The notes under the pieces were generated by a model. It was not told the DNA's origin. It searched no databases and saw only the letters and a list, made by a program, of their open reading frames with translations. The translations under genes were made by a program, and so were the position numbers. Shown in pieces: positions 1,318 to 22,897 of a DNA stretch of 41,703 bases (positions are counted from its first letter, which is position 1; the number at the start of each line of letters is the position of its first letter). This DNA comes from a virus: IMG/VR virus record IMGVR_UViG_3300032053_000168, positions 1-41,703 of that record. The stretch is one strand, 5' to 3'.

Positions 1318-2135
1318 GCGAGGCACTTGATTTCATAAAGAATTTTGAGGATTTACTTAAAGCAAACGAAATAGAACAACGCAAGACCACTTCCTTAAAA
1401 AGTGTAAAAGAGGCACTTGACAAGGAAGTCGTGGAATTACTTGCAAAGAAAAAAAGGATAGAACAACAGACAGAGGAAAAATTATCTCTTTGTGATAAGG
1501 AACTCTCCGAACGCAATGAAAATATGGAGAGGAACTTTGAGGCGGAAAGAATCCGGATTGTTACTTTAAGTGAGAAACTAGACAAGCAAAGAACAGAATC
1601 AGAGCAAAGAGAGGCAGATATAAGACACAAGGAATCCGTAGCAAACGAAAGGGAACGCCTATTAACCGAAAGAGAACATAGGTTAGATCATAAGGAAGTT
1701 GACCTGCTGACCAAGGAAGAACAGATAAAGAATGATAACCAAACCATCGCTGCTGCCAATATGGGAATACAGAGGCAACTTCAAACCATAGAGGAGCAAT
1801 TGAAGGGCATAGGAGAGGCAAGGCAAGGCATACAGGATAACCAGGCAGAACTTAGGAAGCAACAATCTGCTATACGAGAGGCAAGGGAAAAGTTAGAACT
1901 TGAAACAACAAACCTTGAAACCGAGAAAAAAGAAATAACCAAGAGCAAGGAAGAATTAGAGTCGGCTCAAATCAAATTATCGGAAGCCAATAAACTAGTT
2001 GATGCGGAGAGATTTATTCTAGATAAGCAGAAAAAGGATAATCTTGATAAGGAGAACGCACTTAAGGCAATGCAGGTGGAAATGGATTTTAAGTTAGCGC
2101 AATTTAAGAGGAAGTATGAAAAAGATAATAAGTAG
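1314..2135 (+). CDS. Long coiled-coil protein, probable virion or assembly component
   Basis: A 273-residue protein that is almost wholly coiled coil: rich in Glu, Lys, Gln and Leu, with few Pro or Gly. The densest heptad stretch covers about residues 50-260. There is no signal peptide or membrane segment. It overlaps the previous gene by 4 bases and the fibre-like gene after it by 20 bases, so it may be made together with that fibre. A tail-fibre chaperone, tape-like rod or structural spacer would all fit; the sequence does not decide among them. Confidence 0.8.
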   Translation: MSEALDFIKNFEDLLKANEIEQRKTTSLKSVKEALDKEVVELLAKKKRIEQQTEEKLSLCDKELSERNENMERNFEAERIRIVTLSEKLDKQRTESEQREADIRHKESVANERERLLTEREHRLDHKEVDLLTKEEQIKNDNQTIAAANMGIQRQLQTIEEQLKGIGEARQGIQDNQAELRKQQSAIREAREKLELETTNLETEKKEITKSKEELESAQIKLSEANKLVDAERFILDKQKKDNLDKENALKAMQVEMDFKLAQFKRKYEKDNK

Positions 2136-4512
2136 TGTCATTATATTTTTATTAAGCGTAGGTCTTGCCTTTGCCGATGTGGCTAGTAAAAATCCTATTC
2201 TCCAAGATGAGGGAACAACTGTTGCAGGTAGTGGTCGCATACTTAACTTTACTGGCGCAGGGGTAGCGGTAACTTTTGCGGGTGGTAAATATGTAATTAC
2301 GATAGGCGGTGGTGCTGGTGGCAATAACTGGACAGCCGCAGGTGATACCGGCACCCCATTTTTAGTAGGTGATACTGCTGAGACCGTAACCTTAAAAGGT
2401 GCAGGTATAAATACGGTCTCTGCTGGTGGTAATGTATGGACAGTAACAGGGACAGAGGTTGATGGCTCTATCACAAATGAGATTGAAGTTGTTGATGATA
2501 CTTATGGAATAGCTTGGAGTGTTGATACTACCCACGCCGCCTCAAAGAAATCCCTATATGATAAAATAGAGACTCTTGGAGTTGGTTCAGGCGATGTAAC
2601 CTCTGTTGGTGATTGCACTGGTGGTGCTTGCTTAGACGGAACTTCAGATGGTGGCACTTATATTAAATTCTATGATGCAGAAGGGGCAGGAACTTTAATT
2701 CTTCCTGATATAGCAGGTGCGGTTACTTGGACATTACCTTCTACGGGCGGAACACTTATTCATACCGAAGTCGACCCTACCGTTGATACTGATGACGAGA
2801 TAATCGCCATTATTAACGCTTCGCCTTCAACCACGATTAAACACGAAGCGGGCGGATTAGAGGCAGATGTCTCTGCTTATGCAGGTCTTGTTCATATTAC
2901 TGGTGGTACGACTTCTGCAAAGACATTAGGCATTGCTGATACTAATATATCACCGATTAACGCCGCAGATGTAGCTGACAATGATTATGCTAAATTTACA
3001 GCAACGGGATTAGAAGGCAGAAGTTACTCGGAAGTTTTATCTGATATAGGGGCTCAAGCAACAGTAACAGAAGGAAGCTTAGCGGATAGTGTGATAATTT
3101 CTGCCGACATTAAAGACACTGTAATTATTGCCGCAGATATGGCTAATGCCGACCACGGAGATATGGGCTGGACTGCTGGGGTAGGATATGTTGATGATGA
3201 TAGCCATGCCCATACTGCTTCTACTATATCAGGATTAGGGACTGATGATATTTCAGGATTAGATATTTCAGCAGATACTAATTTAGCAGTAACTGCCCCG
3301 ATAGTCTTAACTGATGATACTATTTCTATTCCCAAAGCCGATGATACCACCAATGGCTATTTATGGTCAACAGATAGAGTTACTTTCAATGGCAAAATGG
3401 ATGGTGCTTTAGCCAAAGATTTAGTAACTACTACTCCATTAGCTGGTGGAACTGACAATATCTTGCCAGGTGCGGATGCTGATATAACTTTATCAATAAC
3501 AAAAGCAGATACTTCTACAAACGGATACTTATGGTCAACTGACTGGAATACATTTAACGACAAGATGGCGGGAACACTTTTAAAGGACTTAGTTACTACC
3601 GCACCCTTAACAGGTGGCACAAACGATATTTTCCCAGGAGCAGATGCGGATATTACGATTGCCATACCTGTTGCCACTTCTACCGCAAATGGGTATTTGT
3701 GGTCAACCGATTGGGTTAGTTTTGATGGAAAAATGGCAGGCACCTTAGCGGGTGATCTAGTTACCACCGCCCCGATTACAGGGGGAGTAAATGATATTTT
3801 TCCTGGTTCTGGAACGAAAGCTACGATTGCAATTCCAGTAGCCACCACTTCTGCGAATGGATATCTTTGGAGTACAGACTGGACGACTTTCAATGCTAAG
3901 CAAGCGGCGTTAGGTTACACACCGAGTTATCAATGGACAGTAGCAGGAACAACTGGTGCTGACCTAATTGGCAACACTGCCGAAACTTGGACTCTTGTGG
4001 GTGCAGGTGGGAACTCCACAGCAGAGAGTGGTAACACTATGACTATTACTTGGACTTCTGTTGGGTTGGGATGGAACGGAAATGCCATAGCAAATACCAA
4101 AGGCGGGACAGGACAGGACTCCTCCACTTGGACGGGAATAGGCAGGGTTGCGGCAGGAACTTGGACGGTAGACCCACAAAAAATAACCTTTCATATAAAC
4201 ACACCAAATGCCACTACATTTTCAAATAATATCTGGGCGGCAGACAGGGCGATAACATTAACTTCAGTAGACCTTACTTTGGGTAGTGGAACTTGGAGCA
4301 TAAAAGGTCAACTTTTGGAATGTAATAATGCAGGGGCTTCGTGCGTTGTTACTTCGGCTACTAATTGGACAGTAACAGCAGGAACGACTTTAACCTGGAC
4401 AACTTTTAGTAATGCGACAATTGCTTCGGGAGGGCAAATCGGATGGACTACGAGTGCTTGCTCGTGGACAACAGGCAATGGTAGTGTTGGCGTAACTATG
4501 AAATATCAATGA
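2116..4512 (+). CDS. Large tail-fibre-like protein with an N-terminal signal peptide
   Basis: A 798-residue protein. The first 21 residues (MKKIISSVIIFLLSVGLAFA) form a textbook Sec signal peptide with Ala at the likely cleavage site, which is unusual for a virion protein. The body is rich in Thr, Gly, Asp and Ala with little Lys, as in beta-helical fibres. Residues about 390-600 carry 56-residue repeats built around GYLWSTDW...F..KM and TTAPLTGG...FPGADADITI. A later GGTGQDSSTWTGI motif is typical of phage tail fibres, and the C-terminal 110 residues look like a beta sandwich. The start follows an AAGAGGAA site. Probable role: receptor binding or a long tail fibre. The stop is overlapped by the 3' end of the leftward HNH gene. 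Confidence 0.85.
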   Translation: MKKIISSVIIFLLSVGLAFADVASKNPILQDEGTTVAGSGRILNFTGAGVAVTFAGGKYVITIGGGAGGNNWTAAGDTGTPFLVGDTAETVTLKGAGINTVSAGGNVWTVTGTEVDGSITNEIEVVDDTYGIAWSVDTTHAASKKSLYDKIETLGVGSGDVTSVGDCTGGACLDGTSDGGTYIKFYDAEGAGTLILPDIAGAVTWTLPSTGGTLIHTEVDPTVDTDDEIIAIINASPSTTIKHEAGGLEADVSAYAGLVHITGGTTSAKTLGIADTNISPINAADVADNDYAKFTATGLEGRSYSEVLSDIGAQATVTEGSLADSVIISADIKDTVIIAADMANADHGDMGWTAGVGYVDDDSHAHTASTISGLGTDDISGLDISADTNLAVTAPIVLTDDTISIPKADDTTNGYLWSTDRVTFNGKMDGALAKDLVTTTPLAGGTDNILPGADADITLSITKADTSTNGYLWSTDWNTFNDKMAGTLLKDLVTTAPLTGGTNDIFPGADADITIAIPVATSTANGYLWSTDWVSFDGKMAGTLAGDLVTTAPITGGVNDIFPGSGTKATIAIPVATTSANGYLWSTDWTTFNAKQAALGYTPSYQWTVAGTTGADLIGNTAETWTLVGAGGNSTAESGNTMTITWTSVGLGWNGNAIANTKGGTGQDSSTWTGIGRVAAGTWTVDPQKITFHINTPNATTFSNNIWAADRAITLTSVDLTLGSGTWSIKGQLLECNNAGASCVVTSATNWTVTAGTTLTWTTFSNATIASGGQIGWTTSACSWTTGNGSVGVTMKYQ
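3290..3915 (+). repeat. 168-bp tandem repeats inside the fibre gene
   Basis: The codons for G-Y-L-W-S-T-D occur at 3355, 3523, 3691 and 3859, exactly 168 bases (56 codons) apart. Three full units and flanking partial ones are visible. Protein identity between units is high but the DNA has diverged at third positions, so these are old repeats kept in register by selection on the protein. Confidence 0.9.
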
Positions 4513-4973
4513 TGAAACTTTCTACCGTCAAAAATTATTTCGTGAGGTTTAACTATATCGGGTTTTTTTTCAAATCTTATATGGGCAGAATTACTAATAA
4601 AAGCCATAAGATTTTGAGGGTTATTATTAGCTTTATTTTTGTCTATATGATGACAATGTTCTTCTGCTTTAAGATATCTTCCAATTTGTTTTTCTACTAT
4701 AAGACGATGTTCTTTAACATATCCAAGATGATTAGCAAAAGGGTGAGTAGGAATTTTTATAGAAACATAACCATATTTATCAATTATTCGTCCACCTTGC
4801 CAATTATAGTGTTTTTCCATTGCCATATAACCCCTAAGACCTTTATTCCACGGTGGCATTCCAAGTGTATAATGTTTTCCTTTCATTCTTTCCTTATTAA
4901 CCTTAGCAGAAATTTCTTTCCATTCATCAAGAACTTTGTGTCCTTTTATAAATCTTCCTTTACTATCTCTCAT
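4506..4973 (-). CDS. HNH homing endonuclease, copy 1 (leftward)
   Basis: A 155-residue protein on the minus strand. A short N-terminal region with PWNKGLRG resembles a NUMOD3 DNA-binding motif. It is followed by the HNH_3-type core: YGYVSIKIPTHPFANHLGY, EHRLIVEKQIGRYL and HCHHIDKNKANNNPQNL, carrying the His-His and Asn residues of the ββα-metal site. The family makes site-specific DNA breaks that spread its own gene. The start follows GAGGTGAT on the minus strand. Its stop overlaps the fibre stop by a few bases, and a structured leader with its own promoter lies directly upstream. It is one of four HNH genes in the genome. Confidence 0.9.
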   Translation of the reverse strand: MRDSKGRFIKGHKVLDEWKEISAKVNKERMKGKHYTLGMPPWNKGLRGYMAMEKHYNWQGGRIIDKYGYVSIKIPTHPFANHLGYVKEHRLIVEKQIGRYLKAEEHCHHIDKNKANNNPQNLMAFISNSAHIRFEKKPDIVKPHEIIFDGRKFHH

Positions 4974-4984
4974 CTCATCACCTC

Positions 4985-5084
4985 AAAAATTAAAGGGCTT
5001 CTTTCAGCGTGGTTATCAGAAACGGTGAAGTTTCTCCGCCTACTCAAAGCCCGATTAGACATAAAAATACCGCTTCCGATAACC
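4985..5084 (-). ncRNA. Structured leader RNA of HNH copy 1 (pseudoknot or attenuator-like)
   Basis: Read on the minus strand, the RNA should start at G5084 and open with GGTTATCGGAAGCGG (5084-5070). This pairs over all 15 positions, two of them G-U, with CCGTTTCTGATAACC (5025-5011). The segment between holds GGGCTTT (5052-5046), which pairs with GAAGCCC (5001-4995), and a hairpin (5037-5018) that shares bases with the long helix. GAAGCCC is followed by TTTAATTTTT and then the HNH ribosome binding site. The two folds compete, as in an attenuator, and could also form a pseudoknot. A 30-codon reading frame inside the RNA (ATG at about 5062) ends overlapping the HNH start. No known RNA family is recognised. 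Confidence 0.7.
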
Positions 5085-5090
5085 AAAATA

Positions 5091-5118
5091 AGTATACCAC
5101 AATTAGGAACTTTGTCAA
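5091..5118 (-). promoter_or_regulatory. Minus-strand promoter of the HNH copy 1 leader RNA
   Basis: On the minus strand there is TTGACA (5118-5113), a 16-base spacer and TATACT (5096-5091). The seventh base after the -10 box is G5084, the first base of the structured leader. The -35 box lies only 2 bases from the start of the rightward gene at 5120. Confidence 0.8.
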
Positions 5119-5119
5119 T

Positions 5120-6367
5120 ATGAAAAAACTCCTTTTACTTTTATCTCTCCTTTTCCTCACCTCAACTTGTTTTGCTCAAACCTCTGTCAAACCAATCATC
5201 AAAGATAAAGACAAACAAGTCTATCGCACCCAGTTAGGCGAAGACAATGACGAAGTCATCATCGGTGGCAAAAATCCTCTTGTCTTTGAGCCAGAAATCC
5301 AATTTTTTAAATGGAACAAAGAAAACTCCCTCACCATCAAACCCCTCTTTGATATCCCTAACGCCACTACCTCACTTGTAGGAAATAAAATAGAACACAA
5401 AGGGGATAAGATAGGTTGGTATGCTAATCCTGACCCTGAGAATGCAGATAACCTTAAATTCGGTCTTATCCTCTATGAGAAACCTGCCACAAATGTATTT
5501 CAATTCCAGTTAGAAGGTTGGGAAGAGTTTGATTTCCTTTATCAGAAACCTTTAGCTAATCAATATCCTAATGGTTCATATTGGGAAGATGATGGTAAGG
5601 GTGGAATTAGAACTTGCCCTGAAGAAATTGCGGGAAGTTATGCTGTATATCATAAGACAAAAGCGAATTATGAAATAGGTAAAGTTAATTATCAAATAGG
5701 AAAGTTTGGACACATATTTAGACCTCGTTTATTAGATACTGATGGTCTTTTTTTATGTTGGGTAGATTTACTTATTAAAGATGGGATTTATACTCTAACC
5801 GTTGACCAGAAAACTTTAGACACCGCAAAATATCCCCTAAAATTTAATGACTGGTTTGGAAATCAGGGAACAGGAGCAAAAACTGCTACCAATAATAATT
5901 GTCCTAGTTATTGTCTTTCCCTTTCAACTCCTGCGAGTAATGGTGCTATGACGAGTATGTCAATTTATGGAAGAGACTGGGATGGCGATGGAGAGCGTTT
6001 TTGTCCTGCTTTATACTCTAATGTTTCAAGTTTACCAAGTGCAAGATTAGCTAAGGTTGATTCAGGGGGAACTGCATTTGATGTCACCACAACTTGGTAT
6101 ACTACCAATCTTGCTTATGCGAGTATAGTTGCAAGCACGCAATATTGGTTGGGTATGAAAAGTGGAATAAATGGCACACATTTTCTTTTCAATTATGATG
6201 ATGGAAGTGCTGGTGAAAGACAAATGGGTGCTTCAGGCGAAGGAGCATATCCCGACCCTGCCACTGTAATTGGAGAAGATGCTATGGCTTATAGAGTTTC
6301 CATCTACGCCACCTACACCCCAGCAGGGGGGGCGGCAGCCACAGGAACAATTATGATGGTGGATTAG
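5120..6367 (+). CDS. Tail-fibre or receptor-binding-like protein with a signal peptide
   Basis: A 415-residue protein. I take the start at 5120 because residues 1-19 (MKKLLLLLSLLFLTSTCFA) then form a clear Sec signal peptide followed by QTS; the open frame extends upstream to 5009, but that part lies inside the HNH element. No good ribosome binding site precedes 5120, which may reflect damage from the insertion. The N-terminal half has a VYRTQLGEDNDEVIIGG region. The C-terminal 170 residues look like a lectin or jelly-roll fold: Gly/Ser/Tyr-rich, with RDWDGDGERF as a possible metal site. The C-terminus, GGAAATGTIMMVD, is typical of virion fibres. The host receptor is unknown. Confidence 0.75.
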   Translation: MKKLLLLLSLLFLTSTCFAQTSVKPIIKDKDKQVYRTQLGEDNDEVIIGGKNPLVFEPEIQFFKWNKENSLTIKPLFDIPNATTSLVGNKIEHKGDKIGWYANPDPENADNLKFGLILYEKPATNVFQFQLEGWEEFDFLYQKPLANQYPNGSYWEDDGKGGIRTCPEEIAGSYAVYHKTKANYEIGKVNYQIGKFGHIFRPRLLDTDGLFLCWVDLLIKDGIYTLTVDQKTLDTAKYPLKFNDWFGNQGTGAKTATNNNCPSYCLSLSTPASNGAMTSMSIYGRDWDGDGERFCPALYSNVSSLPSARLAKVDSGGTAFDVTTTWYTTNLAYASIVASTQYWLGMKSGINGTHFLFNYDDGSAGERQMGASGEGAYPDPATVIGEDAMAYRVSIYATYTPAGGAAATGTIMMVD

Positions 6368-6377
6368 GAGAGAAAAT

Positions 6378-7331
6378 ATGGAGACTTTAATTGTGAATGG
6401 AGTTTTATCAGTAATTTTTATAGGGGGGCTTATAACATACCTTAATTCCTTTAGGATGATGAAATTTTTGATGTTCAATTTCATTAATAAAAAGTTGCAA
6501 ATTTTCAATTCTGTTATCATTCTTAATTCCGTTTATATGATGTGCTCTTTCTTCTGGTTCAAGATAACGACCAAGTTTTTGCTCTATTACAAAACGGTGT
6601 TCAAAAATGTAACCAACATTATTACAAAATGGATGATTAGGTTGAAAAATATAAATATACCCATCTTTGTCTATTTTTCTACCGCCTTTCCAATGAGATG
6701 CCTTTTCTCCTTTACGCAATTTCATTTTTTCTCTTGTTTTCAACGATGCTTTTTTACCAATCATCCAAAGACCAAAACCCTTTTGTTTGGCAATTTTAGA
6801 AAGTTTTTTGCGATGCTTGATAGAAAGTTTTCTACCTATCAACATTTTAATCATATGTTTTCTATATTCAGAATTTTGCCAAAGCAATTTTGTTTTTTCT
6901 CCTGTAGGCATTTTATCACCTCAAAAATAAGGGCTTCGTTCAGCACTGCTTACAAGAAATGGTTAAATTTCTTAGTGCTTACTAAAAGCCCAATTTTAGG
7001 CATAAAAAATCCACTCCCTGTAAGCATATTTATTTTAGTACTTATTTTAGGATTGTCAAGGAATGTTTATGCTCAAGATAATATAGCTAAAGAGATTTAT
7101 CTGCCGATAGGAAGTTTATTGATTTTTATAATTGGTTCATTAGTTGTAGTAAAGGTAAATTTAAAGGACAAAATTTCTTATAAGGACGCCGATGAACGCT
7201 ATAAAAAGGCAGAGGTCTGCGATGAAATCCATAAATCCGTTAATGAGAAACTTAATTGTCTTCCAGAAATAAAAGAAACTGTAACCGAGATAAAAACTAA
7301 GATAGATATATTATTGCAAAATGGAAAATAA
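6378..7331 (+). CDS. Small membrane/coiled-coil phage protein gene split by an HNH element, frame still open
   Basis: The first 20-odd codons (METLIVNGVLSVIFIGG) encode a membrane helix. The end of the frame, from about 7066, encodes a hydrophobic segment and then KDADERYKKAEVCDEIH...KLNCLPEIKETVTEIKTKIDIL, a coiled coil typical of small phage membrane proteins. Everything between is antisense to the HNH gene and its leader, yet stays open, giving a 317-codon frame. The native gene was probably about 80-110 codons. The 3' part may now be made separately from TTG 7119, which has AGGAAG just upstream. Whether the fused frame is ever translated is unknown. The exact insertion boundaries cannot be set without an uninterrupted relative. 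Confidence 0.5.
   Translation: METLIVNGVLSVIFIGGLITYLNSFRMMKFLMFNFINKKLQIFNSVIILNSVYMMCSFFWFKITTKFLLYYKTVFKNVTNIITKWMIRLKNINIPIFVYFSTAFPMRCLFSFTQFHFFSCFQRCFFTNHPKTKTLLFGNFRKFFAMLDRKFSTYQHFNHMFSIFRILPKQFCFFSCRHFITSKIRASFSTAYKKWLNFLVLTKSPILGIKNPLPVSIFILVLILGLSRNVYAQDNIAKEIYLPIGSLLIFIIGSLVVVKVNLKDKISYKDADERYKKAEVCDEIHKSVNEKLNCLPEIKETVTEIKTKIDILLQNGK
6408..6911 (-). CDS. HNH homing endonuclease, copy 2 (leftward)
   Basis: A 167-residue minus-strand protein. The first 65 residues are basic, with repeats of NUMOD3 type (HRKKLSKIAKQKG, TREKMKLRKGEK). The HNH_3 core follows: DGYIYIFQPNHPFCNNVGY, EHRFVIEQKLGRYLEPEE, then AHHINGIKNDNRIENLQLF with His-His and Asn of the metal site. The start follows GAGGTGAT. 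Copy 2 sits inside the rightward gene at 6378 and carries the same kind of upstream structured leader and promoter as copy 1, so the mobile unit seems to be leader plus endonuclease. It is probably an active or recently active homing gene. Confidence 0.9.
   Translation of the reverse strand: MPTGEKTKLLWQNSEYRKHMIKMLIGRKLSIKHRKKLSKIAKQKGFGLWMIGKKASLKTREKMKLRKGEKASHWKGGRKIDKDGYIYIFQPNHPFCNNVGYIFEHRFVIEQKLGRYLEPEERAHHINGIKNDNRIENLQLFINEIEHQKFHHPKGIKVCYKPPYKNY
6922..7025 (-). ncRNA. Structured leader RNA of HNH copy 2
   Basis: On the minus strand the stem TGCTTACAGGGAGTGG (7026-7011) pairs over 16 positions, three of them G-U, with CCATTTCTTGTAAGCA (6962-6947). The predicted start is G7025. GGGCTTT (6991-6985) pairs with GAAGCCC (6937-6931), which is followed by TTATTTTT and the HNH ribosome binding site. 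The hairpin AAGAAAT/ATTTCTT (6973-6954) with a flanking AGCACT/AGTGCT helix competes with the long stem. Relative to copy 1 the long stem has changed sequence on both sides while keeping pairing, which is good evidence for a selected RNA structure. The loop motif GGATTTTTTAT after the first strand is shared. Confidence 0.7.
7032..7059 (-). promoter_or_regulatory. Minus-strand promoter of the HNH copy 2 leader RNA
   Basis: On the minus strand: TTGACA (7059-7054), a 16-base spacer and TAAAAT (7037-7032), with the expected start at G7025, seven bases on. The geometry is the same as in copy 1. Confidence 0.75.
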
Positions 7332-18595: not shown

Positions 18596-19225
18596 ATGTT
18601 GAAGCAAGGCGAGCCAAAAAGCACGGATTTTTTATTAACCAATTTAACCTCCACTTGTAAACCTGAACAAACTACTGTGCGGTCAGGTGAGGCTCGCCAA
18701 GAATCTCAAGCAAGTGGGGGTTTTAAATTTATAGATGGTCAAAAAAGAAGAGTTATATTAACTAATTGTAAAAAATGCAATAAAAGTTTTTATATAAGAA
18801 AAGACAAAATTAAAAAAGGATTTGGAAAATTTTGTTCAAGAAAATGTTATGGAAATTCTAAAAAAGGTATGACTGGTTGGATGAAAGGGAAAAAACTTCC
18901 TCGAGGCAAAGATCATTGGCTTTGGAAAGGTGGACATTGTTATAACACTGAAGGGTATATTCTTATTCATAAACCTAATCATCCATTTGTTCAAAGTAAT
19001 AATTATGTAAAAGAACATCGTCTTATAGTAGAAAAACAAATAGGTCGTTATCTTAAGCCAGAAGAAGTTACTCATCATCTTGGTGCAAAAGACGATAACC
19101 GACCCCAGATGTTGATGGCGTTTGTTAATCAATCTACTCATCAATGCTTTGAACGGGGTAGCATTGTTAATCCTCAGAATATTATTTTTGATGGAAGGAA
19201 ATTATGCAAAACTTTAGTCGGATAA
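18596..19225 (+). CDS. HNH homing endonuclease, copy 3, with zinc ribbon
   Basis: A 209-residue frame with an AAGGAG site. Residues about 58-87 hold CKKCNKSFYIRKDK ... FCSRKCYG, a four-cysteine DNA-binding ribbon. A NUMOD3-like MKGKKLPRGK follows, then the HNH_3 core (EGYILIHKPNHPFVQSNNY, EHRLIVEKQIGRYLKPEEVT, HHLGAKDDNRPQ). The core is close to copy 1, including the C-terminal IIFDGRK. The first 50 codons read through a structured RNA element related to the leaders of copies 1 and 2 and look unlike protein, so the functional start may be later, although no good later start is visible. It overlaps the endolysin start. Confidence 0.85.
   Translation: MLKQGEPKSTDFLLTNLTSTCKPEQTTVRSGEARQESQASGGFKFIDGQKRRVILTNCKKCNKSFYIRKDKIKKGFGKFCSRKCYGNSKKGMTGWMKGKKLPRGKDHWLWKGGHCYNTEGYILIHKPNHPFVQSNNYVKEHRLIVEKQIGRYLKPEEVTHHLGAKDDNRPQMLMAFVNQSTHQCFERGSIVNPQNIIFDGRKLCKTLVG
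18608..18730 (+). ncRNA. Structured RNA element overlapping HNH copy 3 (divergent member)
   Basis: GGCGAGCC (18608-18615) pairs with GGCTCGCC (18691-18698), and the adjoining AGCACGG and CTGTGC pair inside it. CCACTTG (18651-18657) pairs with CAAGTGG (18711-18717), which is followed by GGGTTTTAAATTT. The order of pairing strands is the same as in the leaders of copies 1 and 2, and the first strand is followed by CGGATTTTTTAT, nearly identical to their loop. Unlike them, it lacks a clear own promoter and is read through by the HNH frame. Confidence 0.5.
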
Positions 19226-22366: not shown

Positions 22367-22897
22367 ATGCCTAAGGGAACTTATATAAGAACTAAACCAG
22401 TTTGGAATAAAGGGAAAAAATGCAAACCTCTATCTATAGAACATAGGAAAAAATTAAGTTTATCTTTAAAAGGTATTAAGCGAAAACCTTTTACTGAAGA
22501 ACATAGAAAGAAGTTAAGCATTAGTCATAAAGGGTGCTTCCCATCAGAACAAACTCGTAAAAAATTAAGTATCGCACATAAAGGTAAAATTGGATATCAA
22601 AGGGGTAAGTCTGGGGAAAATACTACAAATTGGAGAGGCGGAAAAAGAATCCATTCAAATGGTTATGTATGGATTTATTCTCCTCTTCATCCCTATCACT
22701 CTGCACAAAAATATGTGCTTGAACATCGTTTGGTTATGGAGAAAAACCTTAAAAGATACCTTAATCCTAACGAGATTGTTCATCATATAAATGGAAACCA
22801 TCAGGATAATCGGATAGACAATTTGATGCTTTTTTCAGATAGTAAATCACATTTAAATTACCATCGTTTAATATTAAAAAAGGAGAGGAACAAATGA
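22367..22897 (+). CDS. HNH homing endonuclease, copy 4, with triple NUMOD3 repeats
   Basis: A 176-residue protein with an AAGGAG site. The N-terminal 75 residues hold three NUMOD3-type repeats (S/T-x-E-HRKKLS...KG), which bind DNA along the target site. The HNH_3 core is NGYVWIYSPLHPYHSAQKY, EHRLVMEKNLKRYLNPNE and VHHINGNHQDNRIDNLMLF, with intact His-His and Asn. It is inserted on the plus strand between the nuclease and the gene at 22894, whose start it overlaps. Unlike copies 1-3, I see no structured leader upstream. Confidence 0.9.
   Translation: MPKGTYIRTKPVWNKGKKCKPLSIEHRKKLSLSLKGIKRKPFTEEHRKKLSISHKGCFPSEQTRKKLSIAHKGKIGYQRGKSGENTTNWRGGKRIHSNGYVWIYSPLHPYHSAQKYVLEHRLVMEKNLKRYLNPNEIVHHINGNHQDNRIDNLMLFSDSKSHLNYHRLILKKERNK

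Follow-up and report, generated by a model that had tools for sequence, protein, structure and literature searches.

A predicted pseudoknot leader RNA and an opposite-strand open frame in HNH endonuclease cassettes of viral contigs

Two HNH genes with a promoter and a leader RNA

The window analysed here, that is, the whole stretch of 41,703 nucleotides of IMG/VR virus record IMGVR_UViG_3300032053_000168, contains four HNH endonuclease genes. Copies 1 and 2 lie on the minus strand, each preceded by a promoter and a leader RNA of about 90 nt. The original prediction had placed an RNA with a promoter of its own ahead of copy 1, and the element is present there, on the minus strand and at the coordinates proposed. 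The features are listed below, P1 to P4 being helices and R1 the covariance model described in the following section.

4506..4973, minus: HNH endonuclease copy 1, 155 aa, PF13392 by Pfam; no TTA, CTA or TCA codon
4985..5084, minus: leader RNA of copy 1, from the P1 5' strand to the end of the U-tract; R1 score 85.4 bits, E 5e-16, copy 1 being included in the model
4985..4994, minus: U-rich run UUUAAUUUUU, terminator-like, immediately 3' of P2
4995..5001, minus: P2 3' strand GAAGCCC, covarying
5003..5005, minus: GAA, 3' half of the internal loop, from sequence
5006..5009, minus: P4 3' strand CGCT, 0-2 nt after P1
5011..5026, minus: P1 3' strand ACCGTTTCTGATAACC, pairing with the P1 5' strand
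5018..5035, minus: P3 hairpin AGAAAC-UUCACC-GUUUCU, exclusive with distal P1
5037..5040, minus: P4 5' strand GGCG; GC/CG/UA covariation at the third pair
5041..5044, minus: AGUA, 5' half of the internal loop (AGUA/GAA); sequence signature of a G-bulged (sarcin-ricin-like) motif
5046..5052, minus: P2 5' strand GGGCTTT; up to 4 pair types at positions 1-6
5053..5068, minus: unpaired J1/2 motif AUUUUUAUGUCUAAUC, conserved in sequence
5069..5084, minus: P1 5' strand GGTTATCGGAAGCGGT; proximal half variable, distal half purine-rich
5091..5096, minus: copy 1 -10 box TATACT; 16-nt spacer, 6 nt before the P1 start at G5084
5113..5118, minus: copy 1 -35 box TTGACA; -35/-10 pair at the same place in 28/28 family copies
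6408..6911, minus: HNH endonuclease copy 2, 167 aa, PF13392 and NUMOD3 by Pfam
6931..7025, minus: leader RNA of copy 2, from the P1 5' strand to the P2 3' strand; R1 score 86.6 bits
7032..7037, minus: copy 2 -10 box TAAAAT; 16-nt spacer, 6 nt before G7025
7054..7059, minus: copy 2 -35 box TTGACA, from sequence
18596-19225, plus: HNH copy 3, HNH_3-like, 52% identical to copy 1 in the matched part; no RNA leader
22367-22897, plus: HNH copy 4, HNH_3-like, 41% identical to copy 1 in the matched part; no RNA leader

The two promoters share one layout, as had been claimed, which reads TTGACA, a 16-nt spacer, the -10 box, 6 nt and then a G, and the elements of copy 2 follow in the same order at 7059-6911, with 75% identity to copy 1 over 114 nt. 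Between the paired strands of copy 1, a G stands before AGUA, GAUAACC forms the rest of the P1 3' strand and is followed by an A, and GAA-A precedes the P2 3' strand; a Shine-Dalgarno sequence, GAGG, lies at 4981-4984 between the U-rich run and the HNH ATG. The first helix occurs in both copies, although it is longer than the arms first given for it (GGTTATC/GATAACC and GCTTAC/GTAAGC): P1 is GGTTATCGGAAGCGGT/ACCGTTTCTGATAACC in copy 1 (16 bp) and GCTTACAGGGAGTGG/CCATTTCTTGTAAGC in copy 2 (15 bp). Its G-U pairs carry the G in the 5' strand, as stated, and the second helix GGGCTTT/GAAGCCC and the competing hairpin AGAAAC-TTCACC-GTTTCT are likewise present. Helix P4 (GGCG/CGCT in copy 1, AGCACT/AGTGCT in copy 2) had been overlooked, as had the pseudoknot strand order and the open frame on the opposite strand. 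A third RNA copy had also been claimed; the window holds only two matches to the model, HNH copies 3 and 4 being without a leader. These two genes run in the same direction as the surrounding genes and show normal use of TTA, CTA and TCA. From the sequence comparisons given below, the structure and promoter layout of the leader RNA are almost certainly real.

A family of covarying RNAs next to HNH genes

Searches of IMG/VR contigs yielded 26 further copies, or 28 in total, with two or three copies in several contigs. The copies were gathered by DNA patterns in IMG/VR, one HNH-protein scan and one covariance model, R1, which represents P2, P4 and P3 and leaves out P1. Such a model search of viral metagenomes had been suggested as a check; it found relatives and added seven copies, and these have a P1 of 13-21 pairs (13/14 in L205x by the automatic measure). 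The original prediction depended on the first helix being conserved in homologues, and over the 28 copies P1 is paired at 456 of 474 positions. The promoter is found in 28/28 copies, with 8-12 of 12 consensus bases, a spacer of 16-18 and a gap of 4-8 nt between the -10 box and P1. Part of the first 21 copies had passed a filter that required helices, so that their paired percentages are somewhat favoured, a bias that is answered by the R1 results and by a pattern (pattern D) made of unpaired and loop sequence only: its 16 loci comprised 12 family members (11 distinct and one duplicate) and four unrelated sequences, with no intermediates. Three of the pattern searches gave 59, 60 and 34 raw matches, most of which were due to chance and lacked promoter, U-tract and helices.

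All sources are metagenomic viral contigs except for one Omnitrophota MAG contig, which is identical in sequence to one of them, and no further copy was found in 285 genomes of this phylum. BLAST comparison of the RNA with cultured phages returned promoter-like fragments only, and no matches were obtained with the HNH copy 1 protein as query. None of the Rfam 15 covariance models (including HEARO, HDV-like ribozymes and the group I intron) reached its gathering score; at a permissive E-value there were only chance matches to miRNA, snoRNA and ToxI models.

The helices of the family measure 13-21 bp (P1), 7 bp (P2) and 3-5 bp (P4), in addition to the hairpin P3. The claim that pairing is kept while both strands change holds over the first 21 copies, far beyond chance. 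P1 positions 9-16 are paired in every one of these copies that has them, with up to five pair types; P2 positions 1-6 (mostly three or four pair types) and P4 positions 1-3 are paired in 21/21. When strands were swapped between these copies, the pairing of proximal P1 fell from 1.00 to 0.43, that of distal P1 from 0.90 to 0.76, P2 from 0.96 to 0.70, P4 from 0.98 to 0.65 and P3 from 0.91 to 0.70, and for each of the P1 halves, P2, P4 and P3 none of 5000 permutations reached the observed pairing. For P2, P4 and P3 in alignment A3, 96.5% of cells were paired compared with 71.3% in shuffles, and the covariation score was 0.743 compared with 0.250 (0/500 shuffles as high); in the same alignment 79 cells were changed on both sides compared with 25.5 in shuffles (0/500). 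The P1, P2 and P4 cells comprise 478 Watson-Crick pairs, 42 G.U and no A.C, which indicates that selection for the structure acts on the HNH strand. The internal loop AGUA/GAA is invariant in the first 21 copies and reads GUA/GAA in variants; to judge from this signature, it may form a G-bulged motif in three dimensions.

P1 crosses P2 and P4 (strand order P1-P2-P1'-P2'), which makes the fold a pseudoknot. Since distal P1 and P3 draw on one and the same 3' strand, they are mutually exclusive, as the original prediction had it, although the arrangement differs from the simple alternative hairpins envisaged there. Compensation occurs in both distal P1 and P3, so both pairings are kept by selection, and mutually exclusive helices that are both conserved are what would be looked for in an attenuator.

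The RNA had been expected to travel with a homing-endonuclease gene, and it nearly always lies directly before an HNH-type ORF. Promoter, P1 and an HNH-type ORF or its remnant follow in fixed order in 28/28 copies, a few of the ORFs being truncated or degraded. Among eight relatives compared with Pfam, HNH_3 (PF13392) was found in L109, L158b, L202 and L204, and a weak PF01844 HNH match in L021 and the truncated L203 ORF; L205 and L208 had nothing above the Pfam threshold, with HNH-like motifs visible by eye. The remaining downstream ORFs were called HNH-type by eye from motifs, without a family model. The partners thus span at least two recognisable HNH families (PF13392 and, weakly, PF01844) plus divergent ones, which makes the RNA a module common to different nucleases. 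In L120 (the same sequence as L175) the RNA at 2781-2874 (plus strand) and the promoter are kept, only a C-terminal remnant of the HNH gene is left, and the opposite strand is open. The compact HNH ORFs, with sites that are empty in close relatives (L233, L236 and L237), have the character of free-standing homing endonucleases of putative cleavage activity.

An open frame on the opposite strand

The strand opposite to HNH copies 1 and 2 carries long open frames, here called bridge frames:

4509..5123, plus: open frame of 204 codons through HNH copy 1, its RNA and its promoter
6378..7331, plus: frame through HNH copy 2, its RNA and its promoter into the next operon CDS; ATG preceded by AGGAG

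At copy 1, the ATG of the frame overlaps the stop of the gene at 2116-4512 and its TGA overlaps the ATG of the gene starting at 5120. The CDS that follows copy 2 (7045-7331, plus strand) is in frame with the copy 2 bridge and has no obvious start of its own; its first residues, the signal-peptide-like VSIFILVLILGLSRNVYAQ, are encoded opposite the copy 2 promoter and P1.

In cassettes that are antisense to their operon (n = 21), the operon strand is open through nuclease, RNA and promoter, with the exception of L208, where the frame stops at the first base of P1, the 5' edge of the RNA. These frames extend over about 140-325 codons and are codon-aligned with the HNH gene wherever it is intact. 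Through the RNA (-20 to +96), exactly one frame is open in 20 of the 21 antisense copies, and in 19 it is the HNH-aligned one; L120 is the antisense copy whose HNH start is spurious. By comparison, none of the 7 sense-oriented copies has any open opposite frame through the RNA. The difference gives p ~ 7e-6 by Fisher's test with copies treated as independent; related copies are not, so that sequence counts overstate the number of independent events. The codons TTA, CTA and TCA are nearly absent from the antisense HNH genes (0 in most, where 4-9 would be expected per intact gene from the codon usage of the window), and the exceptions that we checked lie beyond the start of the bridge frame, whereas the HNH genes of sense copies and HNH copies 3 and 4 of the window use these codons freely. 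A 4-nt overlap joins the bridge start to the upstream stop in copy 1, L047, L153, L195, L200 and L201, and the bridge stop to the downstream start in copy 1, L034, L120, L133 and L202. Two antisense HNH genes that lack the RNA (L064 and L088) also have an open opposite strand, of 189 and 198 codons, and the bridge frame may accordingly belong to antisense HNH insertion in general.

A separate observation concerns the 5' ends of several cassettes (e.g., L109, L133, L200 and L225), where the complement of CTCCTTG at the -35 box is CAAGGAG, the Shine-Dalgarno sequence of the next operon gene; promoter and ribosome binding site thus share bases on opposite strands.

Empty sites indicate what the cassettes interrupt. 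Two genes, A and B, are common to L225 and L233, at 96% and 91% identity, respectively; between them lies a short spacer with AAGGAG in L233 and a cassette of about 600 nt in L225. The two genes run into each other at a TAATG overlap in L236-L239, L241 and L242. Insertion of the cassette thus separates adjacent genes whose translation may be coupled, and a bridge frame would restore their coupling.

These data make it very likely that the opposite-strand frame is under selection, and it probably serves as a bridge for ribosomes. It also seems likely that both strands are written at once: one with promoter, leader and nuclease, the other kept free of stops only when the cassette is antisense, so that ribosomes cross and the flanking genes stay translated. 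As the stop-free strand runs over the structured RNA, the RNA would meet the constraints of base pairing and of the opposite-strand frame together.

A possible two-state leader and its alternatives

The end of the leader had been likened to a terminator placed just before the HNH ribosome binding site, and the GC-rich P2 does run into a U-tract. The outer pairs of P2 are nearly always G-C, the next 9 nt contain 4-8 T in 21/21 aligned copies, and GAGG or GGAGG and then ATG follow the U-tract in most copies. A GC-rich stem directly followed by a U-run ahead of the gene is the second property that would be looked for in an attenuator. Since the loop of P2 is longer than 8 nt, an automatic terminator scan (loops of 3-8 nt) did not call it. 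A U-rich stretch ahead of the Shine-Dalgarno sequence is also common in AT-rich phages. By simple energies that ignore pseudoknot costs, full P1 is favoured over proximal P1 plus P3 by 5-13 kcal/mol in every copy, so that a switch would need kinetic or ligand-driven control. On geometric grounds, full P1 may hinder P2, since the 16-20 nt of J1/2 would then need to reach across roughly 30 bp.

A cis-acting leader is favoured by the constant placement of the RNA immediately ahead of the HNH Shine-Dalgarno sequence in the copies examined, and we regard it as quite likely that the RNA is a cis-acting element of the HNH gene. More tentatively, we propose a two-state cis leader of a mobile nuclease cassette, with transcription attenuation by switching as the leading, still doubtful, candidate. 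The mobile phage cassette would consist of a sigma-70-type promoter, the leader of about 90 nt and the HNH homing-endonuclease gene. P3 would form first as RNA polymerase leaves the promoter; its combination with proximal P1, P4, P2 and the AGUA/GAA loop would then give the pseudoknot, where the U-tract follows immediately on the GC-rich P2 and transcription could terminate. Alternatively, the 5' strand would displace P3 and zip up the full P1 of 15-16 bp, P2 would be strained or delayed, and the HNH gene would be read. The conserved unpaired motifs (UUUUUAUGUCUAA and UUAACC) could be sites for a host or phage factor that biases the choice. Where the cassette lies against the operon, the other strand would provide an open frame along which ribosomes pass from the upstream gene into the one downstream, and this, as we propose, lowers the cost of insertion.

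Two further ideas about the unpaired segments were rejected. An upstream ORF (AUGUCUAA) with translation attenuation does not hold, since the AUG of the J1/2 motif is lost in several members (AUA in L034 and L195, GUA in L205, UUG in L208, AUU in L225) and reading frames differ, leaving no conserved upstream ORF. Pairing of the P3 loop with the Shine-Dalgarno sequence (UCACC/GGUGA) is possible in copy 1 and L034 and is not general. The P3 loops UUAACC and AUAACU contain UAAC, the sequence that also forms the loop in the T4 gene 43 translational operator (PMC3014915); a match of four bases may well be due to chance.

Other readings of the leader have to be weighed against attenuation. A translational operator, in which a protein (a single-strand-binding one, for example) is nucleated at the pseudoknot and spreads from there across the U-rich stretch and the ribosome binding site, in the way that T4 gp32 covers its own mRNA, would have the same anatomy of 5' pseudoknot, A+U-rich stretch and Shine-Dalgarno sequence (PMC3014915), and the conserved unpaired motifs could be its protein sites. 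We consider this unlikely: the downstream HNH families differ, which makes self-binding improbable and calls for a shared third protein, and the GC-rich outer P2 pairs directly against the U-tract are better explained by termination. That termination could instead end most transcripts at about 100 nt and yield a self-standing small RNA that acts in trans, with the HNH gene read by leakage. A promoter at the first paired base, a compact pseudoknot and a terminator-like end would suit such an RNA, as would L120, where the RNA outlives an HNH gene reduced to a remnant; however, the copies found adjoin an HNH-type ORF or remnant and none was found without one, and the proximal P1 sequence varies freely as long as it is self-paired, so that there is no conserved antisense guide. 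We find this reading rather improbable, and give much the same weight to a constitutive 5' stabiliser, whose P1 at +1 and pseudoknot would shield the HNH mRNA from 5'-end-dependent decay without any switching. P1 begins 4-8 nt after the -10 box in 28/28 copies, which would leave the 5' end paired, but the conservation of P3 alongside distal P1, the conserved loops and the U-tract would go unexplained.

Two more readings are far less probable. The strand order P1-P2-P3-P3'-P1'-P2' and a proximal P1 of 7-8 bp resemble the HDV nested double pseudoknot, including a P1 that starts from the 5' G and a P3 that abuts P1', and could suggest that the mRNA begins with a self-cleaving HDV-like ribozyme. 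The resemblance is one of topology only: the 0-2 nt between P1' and P4', which itself covaries, leave no room for the linker with the catalytic C, the promoter sets the start at P1 so that nothing lies 5' to be cut off, and there is no Rfam match. We reject this identity as very improbable. The least credible explanation is that the conservation of the RNA is a by-product of protein coding on the operon strand. Antisense copies do have that strand open along the RNA, but sense-oriented copies keep the same RNA without an open frame, which contradicts this reading; moreover, covariation links the helix arms, G.U pairs are present and A.C absent, and the frame from HNH to the RNA core differs between copies.

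HEARO, or IscB omega RNA, is a structured RNA that adjoins the gene for an HNH-containing protein of a mobile element, and the present RNA resembles it in lying beside a mobile HNH gene. The present HNH proteins are mostly of 150-240 aa with only HNH/NUMOD domains detected, there is no Rfam match, and the variable 5' strand pairs within the RNA and has no guide role; a RuvC-like partner domain was absent by Pfam from the window copies (HNH_3/NUMOD3 only) and from the eight relatives. RNA hairpins control the T4-type homing endonucleases I-TevI, segB, mobE and seg43(25) of Aeromonas phage 25, and all T4-type homing-endonuclease genes except segD are oriented with their neighbours (PMC2988022). 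Those leaders and ours have in common that the 5' UTR of a phage homing-endonuclease gene contains an RNA structure tied to promoter position, and in seg43(25) the hairpin lies, as here, just upstream of a free ribosome binding site (PMC2988022). The T4-type leaders consist of one hairpin each, and in most the ribosome binding site is sequestered by it, whereas the present leaders form a family of covarying pseudoknots with a U-tract and a promoter of their own, and their Shine-Dalgarno sequence follows P2 and the U-tract on the 3' side and is part of none of the covarying helices. The autoregulatory pseudoknot of T4/T2 gene 32, a 5' pseudoknot before an A+U-rich operator, shares with our leader the succession of 5' pseudoknot, A+U-rich stretch and ribosome binding site in a phage mRNA (PMC3014915); the present leader differs in strand lengths and topology, has an additional P3 and internal loop, and would control unrelated HNH genes. 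In the ShiLan domain of Pacc40 gp60, an HNH endonuclease is hidden in an in-frame insertion, and there too the HNH DNA is open in a second frame and the host gene is not broken (PMC11855218). The ShiLan HNH is read in another frame of the host gene transcript with no detectable ribosome binding site (PMC11855218), whereas the present HNH genes are on the opposite strand, between genes, with their own promoter and RNA leader.

The T4-type, gene 32 and ShiLan systems show neither this RNA nor the opposite-strand bridge, and judged by the open-access PMC literature the two together appear to be new. If our interpretation is correct, the leader would represent a widespread RNA family with clear covariation, beyond the handful of T4-type hairpins that control phage homing endonucleases. 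The orientation-dependent open frame, with 21 antisense and 7 sense copies and the empty sites, would amount to a natural experiment on how selfish genes limit the damage to a host operon. It would also be a warning for genome annotation, as gene callers may accept the opposite-strand frame as a genuine protein gene and overlook the nuclease as well as its RNA.
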